Assembly (NCBI GenBank): GCA_040754075.1
Contig: JBFMDH010000033.1
Span: forward strand, 1 to 64,000
Reading direction: 5' to 3'
DNA from: Acidobacteriota bacterium
GTDB taxonomy: Bacteria; Acidobacteriota; Blastocatellia; UBA7656
DNA length: 64,000 nt
The position numbers and the translations under genes were made by a program. How positions within the stretch are numbered: the first letter of the stretch is position 1; every line of letters begins with the position of its first letter. The notes under the pieces were generated by a model, which was not told the origin of the DNA, did not search any database, and saw only the letters and a program-made list of their open reading frames with translations. Below are positions 40,550 to 52,379 of this stretch, piece after piece.

Positions 40550-40682
40550 CAGTTTGCGATTGAGTTTACTTTGAAGCGGTTGAATCAGAGTCTAAAGACC
40601 GCGCTTCAACCAACGACGCGGTCAAAGACCGCCTGGTCAACTCCCGTAAATCGGTTTGCAAAGTAAACCGTCTTGCAAACTG
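40550..40682. repeat. Extended 133-bp palindromic element containing core copy 3
   Basis: Outer arms CAGTTTGC...GTTTACTTTG and CAAAGTAAAC...GCAAACTG pair imperfectly; the exact core GCGGTCAAAGACCGC sits inside at 40618-40632, with a degenerate TCTAAAGACCGC at 40591-40602. It is the longest version of this repeat family in the window. Most of the spacer 40521-40861 is this element. Confidence 0.75.
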
Positions 40683-40746
40683 CAATAGCGGTTCAAATCT
40701 TTCCTGGCGTTTGCCCTGCCGCTCAAAGGCGGCTCTTTCTTATCCA

Positions 40747-40815
40747 TTTTTTATACTTCCTTTATAACCTTTTTAGCTTCTCTTTATGCCTTTTTTATGC
40801 CTTTCCGAATATAGT
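40747..40815 (+). promoter_or_regulatory. T-rich repeated region, candidate KdpE-controlled promoter
   Basis: TTTTTATACTTCCTTTATA is followed by related TTTATGCC units (near 40783 and 40795) and a TATAGT -10-like hexamer (40810-40815) without a -35. E. coli KdpE binds a T-rich box beginning TTTATACTT, and activator-dependent promoters often lack a -35. It lies 47 bases before the first gene of the kdp locus. The assignment is an inference from likeness and position. Confidence 0.45.
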
Positions 40816-40861
40816 CCTCTATGCCGAAACAGCAACTCAACCGAAGGCAAAGAGGACTTCC

Positions 40862-41746
40862 ATGTTTCATAAAATCGTTATCTTCGGCTTTTATCTCTTC
40901 CTGACATTTTTATTGCTGTGGATCAGGAGTTTGATTTTTAAATCTGCCAAACCGAAAACAAATGCTCGATTGGTGGTTTTGCAGGATAAAAAGGTCAAGC
41001 GCCATCTCAGACTGGTAAAAAAATCCGTCAATCGCCAAATCAAGTTCGTAGCCGCAGGGATGTTTTTAATTTACCTGATGGCGCATCACGCTCAGGCGCA
41101 GCAAACCATTTTCAATGTGCCTTCGGGCGATGTGCTCGACAAAGGCAAGGTTTACAGTGAACTCGATGTCACCTTCAAACCCAACAAAGACCCGAATAAT
41201 GTGGTTCAACGCTTTTCGTCATTCGTGCCGCGTGTAGTCATTGGCGTCGGGGGGCGCGTTGAAGTCGGGTTAAACATTACGGGCAATATTCAACCCGGCG
41301 ATGACGCCACCACACTGGTTCCGGCAATCAAGTACAAACTCTACGATGGCGGCGCGAACGGTTGGGCATTCATCGTTGGCGATAATTTATTCATTCCGGT
41401 TCGCAATAAAACTTATGACCTGGGCAACTATGTCTATGGACAGCTCAGCAAAACGTTGAAAACTCAGACTCGATTGAGCGCAGGCGTTCATCATTTCAGT
41501 CCTGATGTTGTGCATCCGAAAAGCCGCGCCGGCGGACAATTCGCGATAGAGCAGCCGATAACCTCGAAATTCGGATTGGCTGCCGACTGGTTCACTCACA
41601 AAAGCGCGACCGGCTATATAACGGCAGGCGTCAATTTCAAACCCCATCCCAAAATAACCGGTTACGCTGCTTATTCACTGGGCAATGAGAATGTCCGTCG
41701 GGGCAATCATTTTTTCTATATGGCGATTGGCATCAATTTCAATTAG
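40862..41746 (+). CDS. Beta-barrel-like envelope protein at the head of the kdp locus
   Basis: 294 residues. The N-terminus has a hydrophobic helix (about 5-22), a basic stretch rich in Lys/Arg (about 30-60), then a second hydrophobic signal-like segment (about 65-80, ending HHAQAQQ). The rest (about 82-294) is beta-strand rich with Gly turns and aromatic ends (VVIGVGGRVEVGLNITGNI, HFFYMAIGINFN with terminal aromatic/Asn), like an outer-membrane barrel. Translation could also begin at the internal ATG near 41057, giving just the signal peptide plus barrel. The ATG at 40862 follows AGAGGA. It leads the kdp genes and could be a porin for K+ uptake; that is inference. Confidence 0.65.
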   Translation: MFHKIVIFGFYLFLTFLLLWIRSLIFKSAKPKTNARLVVLQDKKVKRHLRLVKKSVNRQIKFVAAGMFLIYLMAHHAQAQQTIFNVPSGDVLDKGKVYSELDVTFKPNKDPNNVVQRFSSFVPRVVIGVGGRVEVGLNITGNIQPGDDATTLVPAIKYKLYDGGANGWAFIVGDNLFIPVRNKTYDLGNYVYGQLSKTLKTQTRLSAGVHHFSPDVVHPKSRAGGQFAIEQPITSKFGLAADWFTHKSATGYITAGVNFKPHPKITGYAAYSLGNENVRRGNHFFYMAIGINFN

Positions 41747-42277: not shown

Positions 42278-44071
42278 ATGATGACCATCAATGGGCTATT
42301 ACAATTTCTAATTTTTTTCCTGGCGCTGCTGGCGGTGACCAAACCGTTGGGCGTTTATATGGCGAGAGTCTTTTCCGGCGAATCCACTTTTCCAGGTAAA
42401 GTTTTTTTTCCTCTCGAACGGTTGATTTATCGGCTCTGTCGGATTGACGAAAAGCGTGAACAAAGCTGGGTGACCTACACCGTCGCCATGCTGCTCTTTA
42501 ACCTTGCAGGCTTGTTGCTCACCTACCTGATTCAACGCCTGCAATATTATCTGCCGTTGAATCCGCAAGGACTCTCAGGGGTTCCGGCAGACCTCGCCTT
42601 CAACACGGCTGTGAGTTTTACGACCAACACCAACTGGCAAGCTTATGGCGGCGAATCGACCATGAGCTACTTCACACAGATGGCGGGGCTTGCTTTTCAT
42701 AATTTTGTTTCGGCAGCGACAGGCATTGTCCTCGCCATCGCCTTTGTTCGCGGCATCGCCAGACGTGAAGCCCGGACGCTCGGTAATTTCTGGGTAGATG
42801 TGACGCGCGCCACGCTTTACCTGCTGTTGCCGCTGTCGTTCATCGGCGCGCTGGTTTTTGTTTCGCAAGGTGTAGTGCAAAATTTCAGCCCTTACACTAA
42901 AGCCGCGCTTGTCGAACCACAACCAATCGAAAACCCAAACGAAGACGGCACCACTTCAAACGCAACCATCACCGAACAAACCATCGCGCAGGGACCGGTG
43001 GCTTCGCAGGAAGCCATCAAACAAATTGGCACCAACGGCGGCGGATTTTTTAATGCCAATGCCGCGCATCCTTTTGAAAACCCAACACCGCTATCGAACT
43101 TCTTTTCGATGTTTGCGATATTCGCGATTCCTGCGGGACTCACTTACACGCTTGGACGCCTGACCGGCAATCAAAAACATGGTTGGGCGGTGTTTGCGGC
43201 GATGGCGATTTTATTTGTTGTGGGGTTCTTTGTCACTTATCACTTCGAGGCGCAAGGCAATCCGATTTTCAGTCAACACAACATCACACAAGCGACGGTT
43301 GAACAAAGCGGCGTCGAACAAGCGGGCGGCAATATGGAAGGCAAAGAGGTGCGGTTCGGGATTATGAATTCGGCGCTCTATGCTACGGCAACTACTGATG
43401 CGTCATGCGGCGCGGTCAATTCCATGCACGATTCCTACACCCCGCTTGGCGGCATGATGCCGCTGGTCAATATTATGCTCGGTGAAGTGATTTTTGGCGG
43501 CGTCGGCGCGGGACTCTACGGCATTCTGGTGATGGTCGTGCTTACGGTGTTTATCGCGGGACTGATGGTCGGGCGCACGCCGGAATATCTCGGTAAAAAA
43601 ATCGAAGCCAAAGATGTGAAGATGGCGATGCTCTATACGTTGGTCTTTGCGCTATCCATCCTGGCGTTTTCGGCGTGGGCAAGTGTTGCGTCTTATGGGG
43701 CATCGACAATCAACAATGCGGGCCCGCACGGACTTTCGGAAATCGTTTACGCCTATTCGTCAGCGACCGGTAATAACGGTTCGGCATTTGCAGGCATCAC
43801 GGTCAACACGTTCTGGTACAACACGACATTGGGACTGGCAATGTTGATTGGGCGATTTTTGATGATTATTCCGATGATGGCAATTGCCGGAAATCTGGCA
43901 GCCAAAAAAATCACGCCTTCATCGGCGGGGAGTTTTCCGGTTCATACACCGCTGTTCGTTTCTCTGCTGATTGGTGTGATTATCATCGTCGGCGCATTGA
44001 CCTTTTTCCCGATGCTATCGCTTGGTCCCATCGTCGAACACTTCCTGATGCATGGAGGAACCACATTTTGA
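42278..44071 (+). CDS. kdpA: KdpA, potassium-binding/translocating subunit
   Basis: 597 residues, about 40 longer than E. coli KdpA, with ten or so membrane segments. The four selectivity-filter-like loops are seen: [39 protein letters not shown] (cited in part), [17 protein letters not shown] and [13 protein letters not shown]. KdpA is a K+-channel-like (SKT family) protein that selects K+ and passes it through the tunnel to KdpB. The extra length is partly in a periplasmic loop ([20 protein letters not shown]). The start is the first of two adjacent ATGs after GAAGGTG. Confidence 0.95.
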
Positions 44072-44138
44072 TTGCGGATTGCGGGAGAGGCTCAAGCCTG
44101 CTGCGGCTTTCAATCCGCAATCCGCAATTGGAGGAGTT
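44072..44138. repeat. Heptanucleotide inverted array between kdpA and kdpB
   Basis: ATTGCGGATTGCGG just after the kdpA stop and CAATCCGCAATCCGCAAT before kdpB are inverted copies of the same heptamer, able to fold into a hairpin. The unit equals the one inside the acyl-CoA ligase gene at 17397. kdpA and kdpB are usually close together or overlapping, so this 67-base spacer looks like an insertion. Confidence 0.8.
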
Positions 44139-46265
44139 ATGTCAGACAAAGCACAAAAAAGACCTTTATTCGACCCGGCGATTGTTAAACGGGCAATCAA
44201 GGATTCATTCATCAAATTGAATCCCAAGTTAGTAGCCAAAAATCCTGTGATGTTCGTTGTTGAAATCGGCAGCATTCTGACGACCGTTTTGATTATTCGC
44301 GACATTGCTGTCGGCAATACCGCCAATCTTTTGTTTACCATTCAAGTCGCCTTGTGGTTGTGGTTCACCGTGCTGTTTGCCAATTTCGCCGAAGCGATGG
44401 CAGAAGGGCGCGGCAAAGCACAGGCGGATACCTTGCGCAAAGCCAAGACCGAAACTATCGCTCACCGCATTGTCAAAGATGTAAGTGATGGCGGCATCAA
44501 TGATATTCAAACCGAAGCCGTGCCCGCGCCTAAGTTGAAAAAAGGTGATCTGGTTTTGGTTCGCGCCGGTGAGTTTATTCCCGGCGATGGCGAAGTCGTT
44601 GAAGGCGTCGCCTCCGTCGATGAATCGGCAATCACAGGGGAAAGCGCGCCGGTCATTCGCGAATCGGGCGGCGACCGTTCATCGGTCACCGGTGGCACTC
44701 GTGTGCTGTCGGACTGGATAAAAATCCGCATCACTTCAAATCCCGGCGAAACTTTTCTCGACCGCATGATTGCGCTTGTCGAAGGCGCAGAGCGACAAAA
44801 AACCCCGAATGAAATTGCCTTAAACATTCTGCTCGCGGGATTGACGATTATTTTTATCTTAGCGGTCGTCACCCTTTTGCCTTATGCGATTTATAGTGTC
44901 GATCAATCGAACGCCGCAGGAATTTTTAAACCCGCCGAGCCGCCAACCATCACCGTGTTGGTTGCCTTGTTAGTTTGCCTGATACCGACGACTATCGGCG
45001 GCTTGCTTTCAGCAATCGGTATCGCGGGAATGGACAGAGTCATTCAACACAATGTGCTGGCAATGTCCGGGCGTGCCGTCGAAGCTGCGGGCGATGTGAA
45101 TACCTTATTGCTCGATAAAACCGGAACCATTACGCTCGGCAATCGTCAGGCTACGGAATTCATCCCGGTGCCGGGCGTTAATGAACAACAACTGGCAGAC
45201 GCCGCGCAACTTTCGAGCCTTTCGGATGAGACCCCCGAAGGTCGGTCAATCGTGGTGCTGGCAAAAACCAAATATGGTTTGCGAGGTCGCGAGCTTGCCG
45301 CGCACGAAGCCGAGTTTATTCCCTTCACCGCGCAGACGCGCATGTCGGGCGTCGATTTCGATGGTCGTTCGATTCGCAAAGGCGCGGCAGATACCGTGAG
45401 CGCCTTTGTTAAAGAAAAAGGCGGCAACATCCCTGCGGAACTTCAGCAAGTCATTGAACGCATCGCCAGCGCCGGAGGTACGCCGCTCGTGGTTGCCGAT
45501 AATCATCGCGCCCTCGGCGTCATTTATCTGAAAGACATTGTCAAAGGCGGTATGCGCGAACGTTTTGAACAACTCAGAAAAATGGGCATTAAAACCATTA
45601 TGATTACCGGCGATAATCCGCTCACTGCCGCAGCCATTGCCCGCGAAGCCGGGGTTGATGATTTTCTTGCCGAAGCCAAACCGCAAGACAAAATGGATTT
45701 AATCAAACGCGAACAGGCGGCAGGCAAACTCGTCGCAATGACCGGCGATGGCACCAATGACGCGCCCGCGCTGGCGCAATCGGATGTTGGCGTGGCGATG
45801 AATTCAGGGACGATGGCAGCAAAAGAAGCGGGCAACATGGTTGACCTCGATTCCAACCCGACGAAGTTGATTGAAATCGTTGAGATTGGCAAACAGTTAT
45901 TGATGACGCGCGGCGCGCTCACGACCTTTTCGATTGCCAATGATGTAGCGAAATATTTTGCGATTATCCCGGCGATGTTTTCGACGCTTTATGCGTTGAC
46001 GGGCGCAAAAGCGGGACCGCTGGCGGCGCTCAATATCATGAAATTGGCAACCCCGGAATCGGCAATTTTATCGGCGGTGATTTTCAACGCGCTGATTATC
46101 ATTGCCCTGGTGCCGCTGGCGCTCAAAGGCATCAAGTATCGTCCGCTCGGCGCAGCGGCAGTTTTAAGACGCAATCTGTTAATTTATGGCGCGGGCGGCA
46201 TCGTCATTCCGTTTATCGGCATTAAATTGATTGATTTGATTATCACGGCGATTGGCTTGGCTTAA
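44139..46265 (+). CDS. kdpB: KdpB, P-type ATPase catalytic subunit
   Basis: 708 residues (E. coli KdpB has 682). The phosphorylated Asp is D326 in LLLDKTGT; the actuator motif TGES is at 167-170, its Ser being the regulatory phosphorylation site described for E. coli Kdp[15 protein letters not shown] and [21 protein letters not shown] complete the ATPase (the latter cited in part). It drives K+ uptake at low external K+. The ATG at 44139 follows GGAGGAG; the longer open frame to 44052 would translate the repeat array (giving FNPQSAIGG) and is rejected. Confidence 0.96.
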
Positions 46266-46384: not shown

Positions 46385-46963
46385 ATGGAAATCACGAAAC
46401 AAATTTTTCCGGCAATGATGTTGACAGTGGTTTTAACCGTGATTGTCGGCGTCATCTATCCGTTGGCGGTTACAGGCGTCGCGCAACTTTTTTTTAGGGA
46501 GAAAGCCCAGGGCAGCCTGATTGTAAAAAACGGCAAAGTCATTGGTTCGCGACTGATCGGGCAACCGTTTTCCGGTGCGGGATATTTTCATTCGCGTCCA
46601 TCGGCTGCGGGCAATGGATATGATGCGGGCGCATCGGGCGGCACCAATCTTTCGTCAACAAGCGCGAAATTGCTGGATGAAAAAATCAAGCCCCTGGCGC
46701 AAAGATTAAGTGAACAAAATCACGGCAAAGCGATTCCGGTTGATCTGGTTACGTCATCGGCTTCGGGACTCGACCCGCATATCACACCCGCAGCGGCAGA
46801 ATTTCAAGTGCCGCGAGTTGCTCGCGAACGCGGCATAAGCGAAAGCGAAATTCGCAAACTGGTTCTATCCTATACTGAACATCGCACCTTCGGACTGTTA
46901 GGCGAACCCCGCGTCAATGTACTGCTACTGAATCTCGCGCTCGATGATTTAAGCAAACGATGA
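46385..46963 (+). CDS. kdpC: KdpC, accessory subunit of the K+-transporting ATPase
   Basis: 192 residues. One N-terminal membrane helix (about 10-32, ending in VTGVAQLFF), then the periplasmic domain with the family motifs GSRLIGQPF, GYFHSRPSAAG, DLVTSSASGLDPHITPAAAEFQ (cited in part) and the C-terminal VNVLLLNLALD. KdpC helps raise the K+ affinity and assemble the complex. The ATG at 46385 after GAGGTAG is preferred to the frame opening at 46340. Its stop overlaps the next gene by 4 bases (ATGA). Confidence 0.95.
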   Translation: MEITKQIFPAMMLTVVLTVIVGVIYPLAVTGVAQLFFREKAQGSLIVKNGKVIGSRLIGQPFSGAGYFHSRPSAAGNGYDAGASGGTNLSSTSAKLLDEKIKPLAQRLSEQNHGKAIPVDLVTSSASGLDPHITPAAAEFQVPRVARERGISESEIRKLVLSYTEHRTFGLLGEPRVNVLLLNLALDDLSKR

Positions 46964-48837
46964 AGCGGCTCAAACAAAAACTGATTTCCAGCTACGGACT
47001 GCTGATTGCGCTGATTTTAGCGGTAAGCGTGTGGGGAATTTATCATCTGGTCAGTCTGGGGCGGGCAATCGATGTCATCCTGGTAAATAATTATAAAAGC
47101 ATTATCGCGGCTGAACGTATGAAAGATGCCCTCGAACGTCTGGATTCGTCGGCGCTTTTCGCCATTTCCGGGCAGACCGCTAAAGCACAAAATCAATTTG
47201 CTGAAAATGTCAGTAAATTTGCTGATGAATTGCGGGTTGCTGCAAGCAATATCACCGAAAAGGATGAAGATAAAATCATTGCCGATATCGAAAGGCAATT
47301 TTCGAGCTATCGTCAGACGATTGAAACATTCATCGGCAGCGAGGTGGCGGAGGCGAAAAATGACCAAACCTCATCGACAAAATCGGGAAAATATTTCGCG
47401 CAACTGGAGCCGGATTTCGTGGCGCTCAGAAACCGCCTCGATGATTTGTTAAAGCTCAATCAACAAGCCATGCTGGCGGCAAACGAGCGGGCGATTTCGC
47501 GGTCATGGGAAGCCGAAGTTTCGATGGCAATGCTCGCCCTGGTTGCTTTAATTGCCGCTTTAGCGTTTGCCTGGCGATTCACCAATTATGTGGTTGAACC
47601 GATCAACGTGTTGACCGCCAAAGCCAAGCTCATCGGTGAAGGCGATTTCGAGCAACACATCAGCATCACCTCAAAAGATGAAATCGGCGAACTTGCCACC
47701 GAGTTTAACCGCATGGCGGTGCGCTTGCGCGACCTCAGACAGTCCGAACAATGGCAGTTATTGCTCGAAAAGAAAAAATCCGATGCAGTTCTGGATTCCA
47801 TTTATGAACCGGTGATTGTCACCGACGCGCAAGGGCATGTCACGCAAATCAACAAATCGGCAAGGGATTTTTTCTTACGCGCCCAGGATAACGAAGCCGG
47901 TGATATTGATTACTCATTGTCGCGATTTAGCGCCGGTGAATTGATTCTCAAAGCCGTGCGTGATGCCATGTCTTTGCAAAAACCGGTTGCCCAGGAAGGC
48001 GACGCCGCGATTGTGCCGGTAAAAATCGGCGCTCACGAACGCAGCTATCGACTGCGCACCACGCCTGTGCGCGACGGCGATGGGCGGTTGATTGGCGCGG
48101 TAACCCTGCTTGAAGACATCACGGAAATGCGCGAAGTTGATCGCCTGAAAACCGATTTTATCGCTATCGCTTCAAACAAACTGCGCGACCCGCTCAGGGC
48201 TTTGCAACTGGCGCTGCATGCAGTGATTCAAGGTTACACCGGCGAATTGAACGCTCAACAAGCCGCTATGCTCACAGACGCCCGCGACCAATCCGAACGC
48301 CTGAGAGAAATCATTGATGACTTACTGGAACTTTCAAAAATCGAATCGGGAACCCGCAAACTGTCAATGGAACGATTGCGACCGATAGACATCACCCGCC
48401 CGGTCATTGAACATTTTCAAAGCGCCGCGGATGCCAAACGGATAAAATTAATCGCGGATGTTGCCCCCGATTTAGCCTGGGTAGTCGCTGATGGTGAAGC
48501 ATTGCGCCGGATTTTTGATAATCTCTTATCGAATGCCATTCGCCATACGCCGATGGGCGGCGAAATTAAAATCGAAGCCAAAGAGCGTGTAGACCGCGTG
48601 ATGTTTGCCATAAGCGACACCGGCGAAGGCATCCCGGAAGATGAGTTACCAACATTGTTCAATCGTTTTGCGCAGGTTAAAAAAACCACCAGCGGCGGCA
48701 CGGGACTCGGACTCGCGCTGACCAAACAATTAGTGGAAGCGCAAAGCGGACAGATTGCCGTCAGCAGTCGTGTGGGCGAAGGCACAACCTTTACCTTTAC
48801 GTTGCCCATCGGCGGTTATTCGAGCGCCCGAAATTAA
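46960..48837 (+). CDS. HAMP-PAS sensor histidine kinase lacking the phospho-acceptor His
   Basis: 625 residues: helix 1 (about 9-32), a periplasmic four-helix-bundle-like sensor (about 35-185), helix 2 (186-207), HAMP (about 208-262), PAS (about 272-390), a HisKA-like dimerisation domain (about 398-462) and a HATPase domain (about 485-622). The ATP-binding motifs look intact: N-box RRIFDNLLSNAIRHTP, G1 SDTGEGIP, F-box LFNRFAQ, G2 GGTGLGLAL. The H-box, normally S-H-E-L-R-x-P-L, reads ASNKLRDPL: N406 (codon AAC, 48175-48177) replaces the histidine. It therefore cannot autophosphorylate in the usual way and may work as a regulatory partner, phosphatase or co-sensor. It is translationally coupled to kdpC and shares one base with the KdpD-like gene. 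Confidence 0.9.
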   Translation: MKRLKQKLISSYGLLIALILAVSVWGIYHLVSLGRAIDVILVNNYKSIIAAERMKDALERLDSSALFAISGQTAKAQNQFAENVSKFADELRVAASNITEKDEDKIIADIERQFSSYRQTIETFIGSEVAEAKNDQTSSTKSGKYFAQLEPDFVALRNRLDDLLKLNQQAMLAANERAISRSWEAEVSMAMLALVALIAALAFAWRFTNYVVEPINVLTAKAKLIGEGDFEQHISITSKDEIGELATEFNRMAVRLRDLRQSEQWQLLLEKKKSDAVLDSIYEPVIVTDAQGHVTQINKSARDFFLRAQDNEAGDIDYSLSRFSAGELILKAVRDAMSLQKPVAQEGDAAIVPVKIGAHERSYRLRTTPVRDGDGRLIGAVTLLEDITEMREVDRLKTDFIAIASNKLRDPLRALQLALHAVIQGYTGELNAQQAAMLTDARDQSERLREIIDDLLELSKIESGTRKLSMERLRPIDITRPVIEHFQSAADAKRIKLIADVAPDLAWVVADGEALRRIFDNLLSNAIRHTPMGGEIKIEAKERVDRVMFAISDTGEGIPEDELPTLFNRFAQVKKTTSGGTGLGLALTKQLVEAQSGQIAVSSRVGEGTTFTFTLPIGGYSSARN

Positions 48838-49976
48838 TGCCTGATCAATCCAACAATCGACCTACTGCCGAAGCCTTGCTTGCGAAATTAAACCAATCGC
48901 AACACGCGCGCTTGCGTGTATACATCGGCGCAGCGCCGGGTGTCGGCAAAACTTATCAAATGCTTGAAGACGCCCACCTGCTCAAGCGTCAGGGATTTGA
49001 TGTGGTCATCGGATTGGTTGAAACCTATGGTCGCCGCGATACCGAAGCGAAAATCGCTGACCTTGAAAGCATTCCGCGAAAACGCATTGAATATCGCGGC
49101 GTCATCATCGAAGAGATGAATCTTGAAGCCATCCTCGAACGCAAACCGGAAATCTGTCTGGTGGATGAACTGGCGCACACCAATGCCCCCGGCTCGAAAA
49201 ATTATAAACGTTATGAAGATGTATTGGATTTACTTGATGCAGGCATTCATGTGATGACCGCCGTGAATGTTCAGCATCTGGAAACCTTGAATGATGCGGT
49301 GGCGCGGTCATCGGGCGTGCGGGTGCGCGAAACCGTGCCCGATAGTTTTCTCAAACGCGCTGATGAAGTGGTGAATGTCGATGTCACGATTGACGAACTG
49401 CGAACCCGTATTAAACAGGGCAAGGTCTATAAACCGGAAAAGATTGAACAATCACTCACCAATTTTTTTCGCAAAGGCAATCTGTCGACCTTGCGCGAAC
49501 TTGCTTTGAGAACCGTCGCCGAAGATGTGGCGTCAAAATCCGCGCAGTATCGCGAACGGGAAGGCTTGGAGCCTGCGCCGATTCCCGAAAAGGTGATGGT
49601 CTGTATGTCATCCGGCGCAACCGCAAAAAAATTACTCAGAGCCGGAGCGCGCATCGCCGGGCGTATAGGCGCGGTCTGGTACGCGGTCTATGTGGAAACC
49701 CCAAAAGAAAATCCTTCTGCTAACTCTCCCGAACTGGCGCAACAGATTGCCGAAAATCTGGCTTTTGCCGAAAGCCTGGGCGCAACCGTAGTGAAATTAA
49801 AAGCGCGGCGCGTCGCCGATGGTCTCATCGAATTCGCCAAACGCGAAGGCATCACCCATGTGATTTTCGGGCAATCGGCGCGGTCGCGTTGGGAAATTCT
49901 GCTGCACGGTTCGGTACTGAATCGGTTTCTTGCCGAGGTCAAAGATGCGGCTGTGCAAATCATTCCCGCCGATTAG
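48837..49976 (+). CDS. kdpD: KdpD N-terminal sensor protein (KdpD domain plus USP domain)
   Basis: 379 residues. The KdpD signature domain (about 20-230) has the Walker-A-like GAAPGVGKTYQML, ETYGRRDTEA, the Walker-B-like CLVDELAHTNAPGS and NVQHLETLND. It is followed by a universal-stress-protein domain (about 245-379, ending VQIIPAD). In E. coli this is the cytoplasmic N-terminal half of one 894-residue KdpD that also carries four helices and a kinase; here it ends at a natural domain boundary, and the second half is a separate gene 140 bases on. The N-domain senses ATP and, in other bacteria, c-di-AMP. Stop and start of neighbours overlap as TAATG. Confidence 0.93.
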   Translation: MPDQSNNRPTAEALLAKLNQSQHARLRVYIGAAPGVGKTYQMLEDAHLLKRQGFDVVIGLVETYGRRDTEAKIADLESIPRKRIEYRGVIIEEMNLEAILERKPEICLVDELAHTNAPGSKNYKRYEDVLDLLDAGIHVMTAVNVQHLETLNDAVARSSGVRVRETVPDSFLKRADEVVNVDVTIDELRTRIKQGKVYKPEKIEQSLTNFFRKGNLSTLRELALRTVAEDVASKSAQYREREGLEPAPIPEKVMVCMSSGATAKKLLRAGARIAGRIGAVWYAVYVETPKENPSANSPELAQQIAENLAFAESLGATVVKLKARRVADGLIEFAKREGITHVIFGQSARSRWEILLHGSVLNRFLAEVKDAAVQIIPAD

Positions 49977-50116: not shown

Positions 50117-51676
50117 ATGAACAAAGCGGCAGTGCAAAATTTTTTGGGATACACCTCGGCGGTACTGAGTGTGGCAGCGGTGACGGCTTTTTACCGGCTG
50201 GTGATTGTCGATGTCAATCACACGACGGTGGCGCTCAGTTTCCTGCTGGTGGTTTTGTTGGTCGCCTCTTTTCATAAACTCAAATCGGCAATTTTTACCG
50301 CGATTACGGCAATCTTCTGTTTCAACTTTTTCTTTCTGCCGCCTTTTGGGACGCTGACCATTGAAGACCCGCAAAACTGGGTGGCGCTCTTTGCGTTTCT
50401 GATAACCGCCATCATTGCCAGTCAACTGTCAGCGATTGCCCGCCAGCGGGCGCGTGAAGCCGAGCGCCGTCGCGAAGAACTGTTCAAGTTGTATCAACTC
50501 AGTCAATCCATCATCATCACGCCTGACTCGAAAGCGGTTATGCCTTCGCTGGTTCGACAAATCGTTACCGAATTCGATGTTTCGTTTTGCACCTTGTTTA
50601 TTAAATCGGAAGACGGCGACTGGCATCAGTTGAATGTCGCCACCAGAAGTGAGTATGGGCGATTCATTGAACCGAATGCTTCAATCCTGGATGAAAGTTT
50701 TGCAAGCGGTGAAATCATCGAAGCGGATTTACCGGAAAAACGTCGGCAGGATTTGCAGTCACAACATATTTACTATGCGCCTTTAAAAATCGGCGTCAAA
50801 TCCATCGGCGTGATGGTGGTTACGGTATCAACGCTGGAGCGCGGAACCATCGAAGCCATCGCCGGACTCGTGGCGCTGGCGATGGAACGCACGGCGATGC
50901 TCAAGGAGTTGAGTTATACGGAAGCCCTCAAACAAAGCGATGAATTAAAATCGGCGTTGCTGGCTTCCGTTTCACATGATTTACGCACGCCGCTCACCTC
51001 GATGCGCGCGGCAATCGATAACCTTTTGCAAAAAGATGTTGAGTGGGATAAAGAGGCGCTCAGCGAATTTCATTTGATTATCAGTGAAGATGTGCAAAGG
51101 CTCACGCGGTTGGTGCAGAATTTACTGGAGATGGCGCGCATCGAAGCGGGCGAGTTACATCTTGCAAAAGAGTGGGCAGCGGTTGCAGAAATTATCAGCA
51201 ATACGGTTGAGCGATGCGCCGATGCGACCCGCAATCACAAAATCGTTGTCGATGCCGATGAATTTTTACCGTTTGTCAAAGTTGACTCGCTGTTACTCAC
51301 ACAGGCTTTGAGTTATGTGGTTGAAAACGCCGCCAAGTATTCGCCAACCGACCGTGTCATCACCATTCGCGCGCGTGTAGGCAAAGACCGACTTAGCCTC
51401 AGCGTCGAAGATAAGGGCGAAGGAATCAGTGCTGAAGAGATTGCCCATATTTTTGACAGGTTTTATCGCAGCGCCTCAAAAAGCGTCCAGCAAAGAAGTG
51501 GGACGGGAATGGGACTCAGTATCGCTCGCGGTATCATAGAGGCGCACGGCGGCAGAATTTCCGTTGAAAGCGAATTGGGGCGCGGCTCAACCTTCACCTT
51601 TGAAATTCCCACGGCAACCAAATCGGTTGCGGCAATGCGAATCGAACAGGAGAACAACGAGGCAGTTTATGAATGA
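50117..51676 (+). CDS. DUF4118-GAF-histidine kinase (C-terminal half of KdpD)
   Basis: 519 residues. Four short membrane helices of the DUF4118 type (about 7-105; FNFFFLPPFGTLTIEDPQNW is the signature loop), a linker helix (RQRAREAERRREELFKLYQL), a GAF domain (about 130-262), HisKA with the intact H-box SVSHDLRTPLTSM (H287) and HATPase with VVENAAKYSP, DKGEGIS and GTGMGLSIARGI. It matches the second half of E. coli KdpD. The ATG at 50117 has no strong ribosome-binding site; a frame open from 49889 overlaps the previous gene, but its extra sequence is repeat-derived. It overlaps kdpE by 8 bases. With the upstream protein it should form a two-chain KdpD. Confidence 0.92.
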   Translation: MNKAAVQNFLGYTSAVLSVAAVTAFYRLVIVDVNHTTVALSFLLVVLLVASFHKLKSAIFTAITAIFCFNFFFLPPFGTLTIEDPQNWVALFAFLITAIIASQLSAIARQRAREAERRREELFKLYQLSQSIIITPDSKAVMPSLVRQIVTEFDVSFCTLFIKSEDGDWHQLNVATRSEYGRFIEPNASILDESFASGEIIEADLPEKRRQDLQSQHIYYAPLKIGVKSIGVMVVTVSTLERGTIEAIAGLVALAMERTAMLKELSYTEALKQSDELKSALLASVSHDLRTPLTSMRAAIDNLLQKDVEWDKEALSEFHLIISEDVQRLTRLVQNLLEMARIEAGELHLAKEWAAVAEIISNTVERCADATRNHKIVVDADEFLPFVKVDSLLLTQALSYVVENAAKYSPTDRVITIRARVGKDRLSLSVEDKGEGISAEEIAHIFDRFYRSASKSVQQRSGTGMGLSIARGIIEAHGGRISVESELGRGSTFTFEIPTATKSVAAMRIEQENNEAVYE

Positions 51677-52379
51677 ACAGTCGAAATCCAAAAAGCCGGT
51701 CATTCTGGTGGTTGATGATGAATTGCAAATCCTGCGCGTGATGCGCGCCAGTCTGCCGGCGCGAGGTTATGAAATTCGCACTGCACAGGGCGGCAAAGAA
51801 GCGCTCGATGAAATGCACAAACAGATGCCCGATTTGCTTATCCTTGATTTGATGATGCCGGACATGAACGGACTTGAGGTCTGTCGCCGGGTGCGCGAAT
51901 TTTCCGAAGTGCCCATCATCGTGCTCTCTGCAAAAGGCGAAGAACGCAACAAAGTCGCGGCGCTCGATGCGGGCGCCGATGATTATGTGACGAAACCATT
52001 TGGCATGGAAGAACTATTGGCGCGTGTGCGCGCCATTTTGCGGCGGCAACATATCGCCGAAGCGCAGACTTCGGTTATCACGGTCGGTGATGTGTCGATT
52101 GACATTGACGAACGTCGGGTTACGGTTGCCGGGCAGGAAATCAAACTGACCCCCAAAGAATTCGATGTGCTCAAGTACCTGTTGACCAATGCGGGCAAAG
52201 TCGTCACCCACAGAGCCTTGCTGCAAGCCGTCTGGGGTTCGGAATCATCGGAACAGACGGAATACCTGCGCGTCTTCATCAATCAATTGCGCCGTAAAAT
52301 CGAACCCGACACCCAACATCCGCGCTATATCATCACCGAACCGTGGGTTGGTTATCGCTTCACGCTTCACGAAGCTTAA
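51669..52379 (+). CDS. kdpE: KdpE, OmpR/PhoB-type response regulator
   Basis: 236 residues. Receiver domain with the acidic pocket VVDDE, phospho-acceptor D60 in LLILDLMMPDMNGLEV and the KPF lysine, then an OmpR winged-helix domain (IKLTPKEFDVLKYLLTN, HRALLQAVWG, LRVFINQLRRKIEPD, YIITEPWVGYRF). It should activate the kdp promoter upon phosphorylation by the KdpD kinase half. The ATG at 51669 lies within the end of the kinase gene, so translation is coupled. Confidence 0.95.
   Translation: MNEQSKSKKPVILVVDDELQILRVMRASLPARGYEIRTAQGGKEALDEMHKQMPDLLILDLMMPDMNGLEVCRRVREFSEVPIIVLSAKGEERNKVAALDAGADDYVTKPFGMEELLARVRAILRRQHIAEAQTSVITVGDVSIDIDERRVTVAGQEIKLTPKEFDVLKYLLTNAGKVVTHRALLQAVWGSESSEQTEYLRVFINQLRRKIEPDTQHPRYIITEPWVGYRFTLHEA

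Follow-up and report, generated by a model that had tools for sequence, protein, structure and literature searches.

The window analysed here, a 64,000-nucleotide stretch of contig JBFMDH010000033.1 from an Acidobacteriota bacterium, contains a kdp potassium pump locus in which a gene for a sensor histidine kinase (HK) lacking its phospho-accepting histidine (46960-48837, forward strand; 625 amino acids (aa), from the open reading frame (ORF) call and Pfam) is directly followed by one for KdpD_N-Usp, a candidate stand-alone atypical serine kinase (48837-49976, forward strand; from Pfam and residue mapping). It is well supported that the former, here termed the pseudo-HK, represents a conserved pseudo-histidine kinase family, and KdpD_N-Usp is the constant companion of the His-less forms. 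Comparison of the loci suggests that the pseudo-HK may directly and conformationally control the adjoining KdpD_N-Usp serine kinase, which would shut the K+ pump through the TGES motif of KdpB and so act on the pump itself rather than on gene expression, a proposal for which the chances appear evenly balanced.

The pseudo-HK is composed of 4HB_MCP_1 (residues 4-169), HAMP (207-258), PAS_4 (278-391), HisKA (397-464; 44 bits, cut-off 26.9) and HATPase_c (511-617; 104.9 bits) domains according to Pfam. Within its degenerate H-box, FIAIASNKLRDPL (48157-48195, forward strand), an asparagine encoded by AAC at 48175-48177 (codon 406) occupies the place of the phospho-accepting histidine, as the initial annotation had read it, with Lys407 and Asp410 at the neighbouring positions. 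The HATPase_c domain (48490-48810, forward strand; from Pfam and the alignment) keeps the N, G1, F and G2 boxes, and the good ATP-binding motifs earlier ascribed to this HAMP-PAS-HisKA-HATPase protein are borne out by N525, D553, G555, G557 and G582, which the alignment finds kept in 46/46 His-less rows. Of the features expected in an active HisKA kinase, the HisKA and HATPase_c domains with these boxes are therefore present, while the phospho-acceptor is absent both from the window (N406) and from all 46 His-less rows, and a cognate response regulator close by is found at none of the 45 other His-less loci.

The conservation of this loss was studied by searching for homologues in 396 genomes of the phylum (24 of them with matches, 25 in all, at E-values up to 1e-60, window included), in 98 close relatives (10 genomes, including the window's own) and, with an f15 member as the query, in 200 genomes of family f15, which has only the phylum in common with the window's genome (48 genomes with a match). 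Flanks were examined at 64 loci, those from f15 representing 40 of its 48 genomes, and 65 proteins were aligned; G410, G478, G522, G531 and G563 were left out of the H-box reading, and the three f15 genomes of which only the H-box was examined (G463, G532 and G564) are all without the histidine. It is missing from 46 of the 65 aligned proteins, namely that of the window, two others from f1, three from f6 and 40 from f15. The residue found in its place varies (Q 20, R 13, E 4, S 3, A 3, N 1, D 1 and L 1), and the positions that follow have changed too: the +1 residue is K in 39, R in 4, A in 2 and Q in 1 of the His-less rows, as against E in 11 and Q in 8 of the 19 His-bearing ones, and the +4 residue is D in 30, E in 9, N in 2, Q in 2 and S, G and T in one each, as against T in 19/19. 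The proline at +5 is invariant. The intact H-boxes read SHELRTPL in f3 and SHQLKTPL or SHQLRTPL in some other families.

The initial annotation held that orthologues with a histidine would point to a local mutation or sequencing error, yet none of the 43 rows in the clade of the window's protein has one, and such an explanation of Asn406 can be rejected because 45 further His-less proteins occur among the 64 homologous loci. More distant homologues, some of them at kdp loci, do bear the histidine, but all 19 are accompanied by a response regulator gene of their own. With the loss conserved among orthologues in both alignment and tree, and the fold kept in the predicted structure, the protein falls among the pseudo-histidine kinases, and its previous designation as a pseudokinase stands, given the conserved loss of the histidine beside an intact ATP site.

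A tree of the kinases, built with the H-box columns left out, unites the window, f1 and f15 in one clade of 43 rows (support 100/100). The three f6 rows form a separate clade (99/98) among His-bearing relatives from f3, f77 and f50 (88/93). On this tree two changes of histidine state are needed, with a single change sufficing in 12% of bootstrap trees, and the approximately unbiased test does not reject a single loss (p = 0.324). KdpD_N precedes the kinase in f6 and f3 and follows it in f1 and f15, a difference in gene order that fits two losses.

The clearest correlates of the loss are found among neighbouring genes, which were counted at 45 His-less and 19 His-bearing loci, the window excluded, with up to 300 bp regarded as close. 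KdpD_N-Usp is this close in 45/45 His-less loci versus 5/19 His-bearing ones. By contrast, a response regulator is close in 0/45 His-less loci versus 19/19 His-bearing ones, which implies that the histidine and a dedicated response regulator gene go together. The nearest response regulators to His-less kinases lie 1.4 kb (L158) and 4.6 kb (L081) away, and in the window the KdpE-like gene is 2.8 kb 3' of the pseudo-HK, beyond the KdpD_N and DUF4118 kinase genes. At the other His-bearing loci, KdpD_N is 0.7-4.8 kb off in seven and not found within the stretch in seven, although a contig end truncates the stretch in three of the latter. The alternative that the histidine was lost wherever a DUF4118 kinase exists was rejected, as His-bearing f3 genomes also have a DUF4118 kinase and KdpE; the histidine tracks the kinase's own response regulator gene. 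Three of the response regulators beside His-bearing relatives (L077 9858-10778, L157 9575-10690 and L088 10180-10911) have, by Pfam, a receiver but no DNA-binding domain.

The KdpD_N gene is situated after the kinase in 42 of the 45 His-less loci and before it in the three from f6. The gene upstream of the pseudo-HK is kdpC in f1 and often a ClC channel gene in f15, the pair itself being intact throughout. A ClC gene 5' of the pseudo-HK on the same strand is found at 21/45 His-less loci, compared with 0/19 His-bearing loci and 0/40 classic KdpD_N loci (see below); all 21 are in f15 (21/40 of its loci), where four of the loci without one have less than 3 kb of upstream sequence. One example is L143 10371-12554, and one ClC gene scores 301.7 bits with Pfam Voltage_CLC. 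At L090 (16509-17342) and L091 (1058-1882), ORFs of 274-277 aa that resemble only the sensor half of the kinase adjoin KdpD_N on the opposite strand.

In Escherichia coli, KdpD_N was described in 2024 as an atypical serine kinase that phosphorylates Ser162 of KdpB, within the TGES motif, and shuts the Kdp pump (PMC11018627). The same source reports that a short KdpD_N-Usp from Deinococcus geothermalis is stimulated by cyclic di-AMP (c-di-AMP), that split KdpD chains are said to be commonest in Acidobacteriota and Chloroflexota, and that control of the short form is ascribed to Usp. The window's KdpD_N has a Walker A GVGKT, a Walker B DE and the Arg equivalent to E. coli R190. When the catalytic residues of E. 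coli K-12 were mapped onto its relatives, the equivalents of the Walker A GK, D109, E110 and R190 were present in 46/46 proteins beside His-less kinases, 12/12 from His-bearing loci and 40/40 from classic f15 loci. The equivalent of W39 is Tyr in 38 and Phe in 8 of those beside His-less kinases, and Tyr or Phe in 97 of 98 sequences overall. The window's protein scores 442.6 bits with NF038185, the model for a KdpD-like non-kinase potassium sensor, below the cut-off of 550. The serine of the KdpB TGES motif, which occupies residues 195-198 of the window's ORF as called, is present in the window and in 8/8 other loci examined. Two KdpD_N copies approximately 1 kb apart occur at L280 (5597-7818) and L080 (11026-13235), and also in G241, G436, G459, G465, G483 and G485; the first copy is the more divergent, with 36% (L280) and 34% (L080) identity to that of the window.

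In f15, the pair can be compared with the arrangement in genomes that lack it. The classic sample comprises 40 KdpD_N stretches, 39 from genomes without a pseudo-HK match together with the second KdpD_N of G410. At these loci a DUF4118 kinase gene lies beside KdpD_N in 38/40, usually divergently, an OmpR-type regulator is found in 36/40, and kdpA or kdpB is within the stretch in 25/40. A further set of 20 stretches containing DUF4118 kinases includes 16 from His-less genomes (12 of these from f15); 15 of the 16 have kdpA in the same stretch, and KdpD_N is found in 0/20. In 24/24 f15 genomes with a pseudo-HK, the KdpD_N that follows it is the only copy over the Pfam cut-off, while KdpE, the DUF4118 kinase and kdpABC remain in a locus of their own, apart from the pair. 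In a quick tree, the 40 pseudo-HK-linked f15 KdpD_N rows group with the class of the window (support 99), and 39 of the 40 classic f15 sequences stand apart (support 99), the remaining one falling with L080. The pair seems to have spread together and to have replaced the resident KdpD_N of f15, as would be expected if the two proteins work together.

The distribution of c-di-AMP synthesis was also considered. The diadenylate cyclase family is detected in 0/24 f15 genomes with the pair, compared with 14/14 of the others searched, the window's genome included. In the wider f15 sample a cyclase is found in 75/150 genomes; if both f15 samples are taken as the same 150 genomes, the 120 with KdpD_N have a cyclase in 1/36 of those with a pseudo-HK versus 53/84 of those without (Fisher 7e-11, ignoring kinship). 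This implies that c-di-AMP made by the cell itself can hardly drive KdpD_N in f15 genomes with the pair, so that another input would be needed, for which the pseudo-HK is the obvious candidate; as the cyclase is present in f1 and f6, the window's genome included, both inputs may act there. A lack of c-di-AMP only partly explains the pseudo-HK, because f1 and f6 have the cyclase and many f15 genomes with no cyclase match show the classic order. The motif (A/G/C)XSXSX2N(Y/F), by which the Usp domain of Firmicutes KdpD binds c-di-AMP (PMC8214093), is present in 0/98 sequences, although this motif was defined on Firmicutes and the count has no D. geothermalis control, so its absence does not argue against binding.

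Purifying selection on the pseudo-HK gene is indicated by estimates of dN/dS from HAMP to the end of the protein for eight pairs picked among near relatives, seven of which give 0.05-0.12, the eighth being saturated. The HisKA and HATPase domains are mostly constrained like the rest of the protein, with one higher HisKA value of 0.28 (L076/L155), several single domains being not computable due to saturation. The AlphaFold2 (AF2) model has a mean pLDDT of 87.2 and a modest pTM of 0.52, and in a structure search its kinase core matches solved kinases, DivL included. The N-terminal part is shortened in 17/40 f15 pseudo-HKs (ORFs of 472-509 aa; for example L084 and L135-L141). In the aligned short proteins L084, L136, L138 and L140 the periplasmic part is missing, while by eye two hydrophobic stretches, HAMP, PAS and the kinase core remain. 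At the opposite end, an RHPVEVG-like tail is present in all 40 f15 pseudo-HKs and an E-x-G end in 40/40; the codons of this tail contain a Shine-Dalgarno-like GAGG, GGAG or AGGA directly before KdpD_N in 35/40, a count for which no chance expectation was computed, and the tail may either serve ribosomes translating KdpD_N as a binding site or act as a binding peptide.

The constant pairing strongly suggests that the KdpD_N serine kinase is the partner of the pseudo-HK. With autophosphorylation and the response regulator lost, the membrane-HAMP-PAS input and the ATP-binding catalytic domain would have been retained for conformational control of KdpD_N-Usp, which would phosphorylate KdpB in TGES and so close the K+ pump; the pseudo-HK would thereby supply the membrane input that full-length KdpD gets from its own transmembrane part. 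What we infer is that autophosphorylation is lost, that the protein touches KdpD_N, that it switches in response to ATP and thereby regulates the serine kinase, and that a stimulus sets this off. The fuller picture is of a two-protein device, in which an ATP-bound pseudo-HK would sense at the membrane and allosterically switch a stand-alone P-loop serine kinase, and the pump would be controlled post-translationally. In this picture, once its response regulator had gone, the histidine kinase body would have been redirected from phosphotransfer to the control of a serine kinase, and the two genes would travel between genomes together, displacing the resident KdpD_N. The device as a whole is judged slightly less probable than its opposite.

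Several observations weigh against control of the pump by this route. The ATP site shows some variation in the His-less rows, with N521 kept in 43/46, G580 in 43/46 and G584 in 44/46. In the wider f15 sample, 3/36 pseudo-HK genomes (G410, G483 and G511) have further KdpD_N copies over the cut-off, and in G586 the pair and the kdp genes are on different contigs. G394, which is 99% complete, holds the pair (L083, 7779-10775) with no KdpC match, no DUF4118 match and no KdpB orthologue, its best P-type ATPase having 34% identity; a pair without a detectable pump makes KdpB unlikely to be the sole target, and suggests a second. The Usp domain can itself be the input, since c-di-AMP stimulates the KdpD_N-Usp of D. 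geothermalis (PMC11018627) and a diadenylate cyclase is encoded in the window's genome. Moreover, 31/84 f15 KdpD_N genomes without a pseudo-HK also have no cyclase match, hence missing c-di-AMP alone does not make a pseudo-HK necessary. Finally, the associations represent one or two evolutionary events, so the locus counts are not independent.

The partner named in the initial annotation was the DUF4118 kinase (50117-51676, forward strand), the DUF4118-HisKA-HATPase protein corresponding to the C-terminal part of KdpD, the H287 of which is intact, as was then noted, according to the alignment. Were the pseudo-HK to dimerise with this kinase or otherwise control it, it would tune KdpE and kdp transcription. 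The genes form one run in the window, but no DUF4118 gene is present in the 45 other His-less stretches, G394 has the pair without a DUF4118 match, and His-bearing f3 relatives coexist with a DUF4118 kinase and KdpE, yet have a response regulator gene of their own. This partnership seems unlikely, even though a DUF4118 protein is encoded in 23/24 f15 and 6/6 f1/f6 pseudo-HK genomes searched, with its histidine intact in the window and 20/20 aligned loci. DivL provides a precedent for a pseudo-HK controlling another kinase (PMC4211667), and in G251, G283 and G574 the kinase gene lies 5' of kdpA at a distance of approximately 9-11 kb from that of the pseudo-HK, so that in these genomes the partnership may yet hold. 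It is similarly doubtful that the pseudo-HK controls KdpD_N while the main target is not KdpB but, for instance, a different transporter or the chloride channel whose gene lies 5' of the pair in f15. The pair of G394, with no detectable pump genes, and the same-strand ClC genes would be accounted for in this way, but every ClC case is within f15, and KdpC is found in 28/30 pseudo-HK genomes searched; the misses are G394 and G570, and in the latter a kdpA piece adjoins the pair on its contig. In addition, no more than 6 kb separates the pair from kdp genes in the window, G251, G570, G283 and G574.

Readings in which the pseudo-HK keeps some enzymatic role, or none at all, fare worse. Phosphatase activity that does without the histidine is frequent in HisKA kinases, and the fold is kept in the AF2 model, which would favour a phosphatase of KdpE, the other role proposed in the initial annotation, or a phosphate sink. 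The acidic +1 and Thr/Asn +4 residues that serve this reaction are replaced, by Lys/Arg in 43/46 and Asp/Glu in 39/46 His-less rows respectively, and KdpE is encoded at a separate locus in f15, making such a role most improbable. There is very little chance that the protein is still an active kinase acting through another residue: its ATP site is intact and the window has H420, the alternative named in the initial annotation, but a conserved second phospho-acceptor at this position was rejected, as it is Tyr in 38/46 His-less rows. The only other column between residues 385 and 479 with at least five His is 426 (14/46), and there is no response regulator within 300 bp at 45/45 loci. The shortened N-termini of 17/40 f15 proteins and the change of G584, in the G2 box, in two rows might indicate a functionless relic in the process of being lost; the low dN/dS, to which HisKA and HATPase mostly conform, and the spread of the family over 16/79 f15 genera make this highly unlikely.

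As a kind of protein, the pseudo-HK is already known. DivL of Caulobacter is a PAS-DHp-CA protein with a conserved non-His site (Tyr, or Ala in one homologue) that keeps the other boxes and acts by binding (PMC4211667). The pseudo-HK, known here from its sequence, resembles it in having a PAS domain and kinase core, a conserved non-His site and kept boxes, and the structures matched by the AF2 model include that of DivL, 4q20 (ranks 14 and 17, 30% identity). However, what DivL senses is a phosphorylated response regulator, and its target is the kinase CckA (PMC4211667), whereas the pseudo-HK has no adjoining response regulator gene and its constant partner is a serine kinase domain. The family also differs in its variable His position, with eight residue types, and in its altered +1 and +4 positions; the Tyr or Ala of DivL is replaced by Asn in the window, and among the 46 rows Tyr occurs in 0 and Ala in 3. 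None of the 25 NCBIfam models shown for the pseudo-HK is DivL, and all are below their cut-offs. The NifL-NifA structure 9qq6 appears at rank 40 among the structural matches. NifL of Azotobacter has PAS domains and a histidine kinase-like core, and controls its partner, a sigma-54 activator, by contact without phosphotransfer. The PAS domain and HK-like core of the pseudo-HK are similar to those of NifL, but NifL is not known to have a membrane part, which the pseudo-HK has, and the candidate partner of the latter is a serine kinase. By analogy, the pseudo-HK may work like DivL or NifL.

Full-length KdpD is a tandem serine-histidine kinase, in which KdpD_N is joined to a membrane-bound histidine kinase body (PMC11018627), whereas the body represented by the pseudo-HK is a separate HAMP-PAS protein with neither His nor DUF4118, and the DUF4118 kinase is a third protein; the terms 'HAMP' and 'PAS domain' are absent from the main text of that paper. 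The His-bearing f3 homologues, encoded in the order kdpABC-KdpD_N-HK-receiver gene, have the same domain order, 39-43% identity to the window's protein and an adjoining KdpD_N in 5/5 loci, but differ in their intact SHELRTPL and in having a response regulator gene within 300 bp. In the topics searched (KdpD, pseudo-histidine kinases and acidobacterial kdp), nothing was found that describes a kinase lacking the histidine next to KdpD_N, and the KdpD_N setting and proposed serine kinase output are likewise not found in this literature. The locus offers a concrete second partner for KdpD_N, and the contrast between His-bearing kinases with a response regulator and His-less ones without clearly illustrates, from nature, how a two-component kinase may be repurposed. 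If the proposal is true, the outputs of pseudo-histidine kinases would extend to a new kind, a serine kinase acting on a transporter, and the question would be open to an existing assay, the phosphorylation of KdpB in vitro.

A contig scan with the single protein returned 21 loci of 25-33% identity, comprising distant kinases and N-terminal-only matches. L060, L061, L063 and L075, from records with Bacteroidota titles, are ORFs of 259-272 aa whose match to the query is confined to its N-terminal sensor part; a Pfam scan of L060 finds 4HB_MCP_1 only, and the stretches fetched for these loci contain no kdp match. In the window, a 357-aa ORF 5' of kdp (40673-41746) has no Pfam match at an E-value of 0.001.

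The remaining genes of the window's locus extend from kdpA to a KdpE-like regulator in a single run on the forward strand. kdpA (42278-44071), encoding the K+ channel-like subunit, scores 749.5 bits with TIGR00680 (cut-off 387.7), kdpB (44052-46265), encoding the P-type ATPase subunit, scores 1080 bits with TIGR01497 (cut-off 527.9), and kdpC (46388-46963) scores 240.3 bits with PF02669. The OmpR/PhoB response regulator (51672-52379; from Pfam), for which PRK10529 KdpE is the best match (235.1 bits, cut-off 325), overlaps the DUF4118 kinase gene. In this locus the N-terminal part of KdpD and its C-terminal kinase are separate proteins, and the additional HAMP-PAS kinase-like protein is encoded between kdpC and KdpD_N. 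The earlier placement of this protein between kdpC and kdpD, with overlapping ends, is accordingly correct as to the overlaps, the neighbour being only the KdpD_N-Usp part of kdpD: the pseudo-HK start (46960) and kdpC end (46963) share ATGA, and its stop shares one base with the ATG of KdpD_N (TAATG, 48835-48839). This overlap of genes in the window suggests, as previously proposed, that the pseudo-HK is made in step with the pump.

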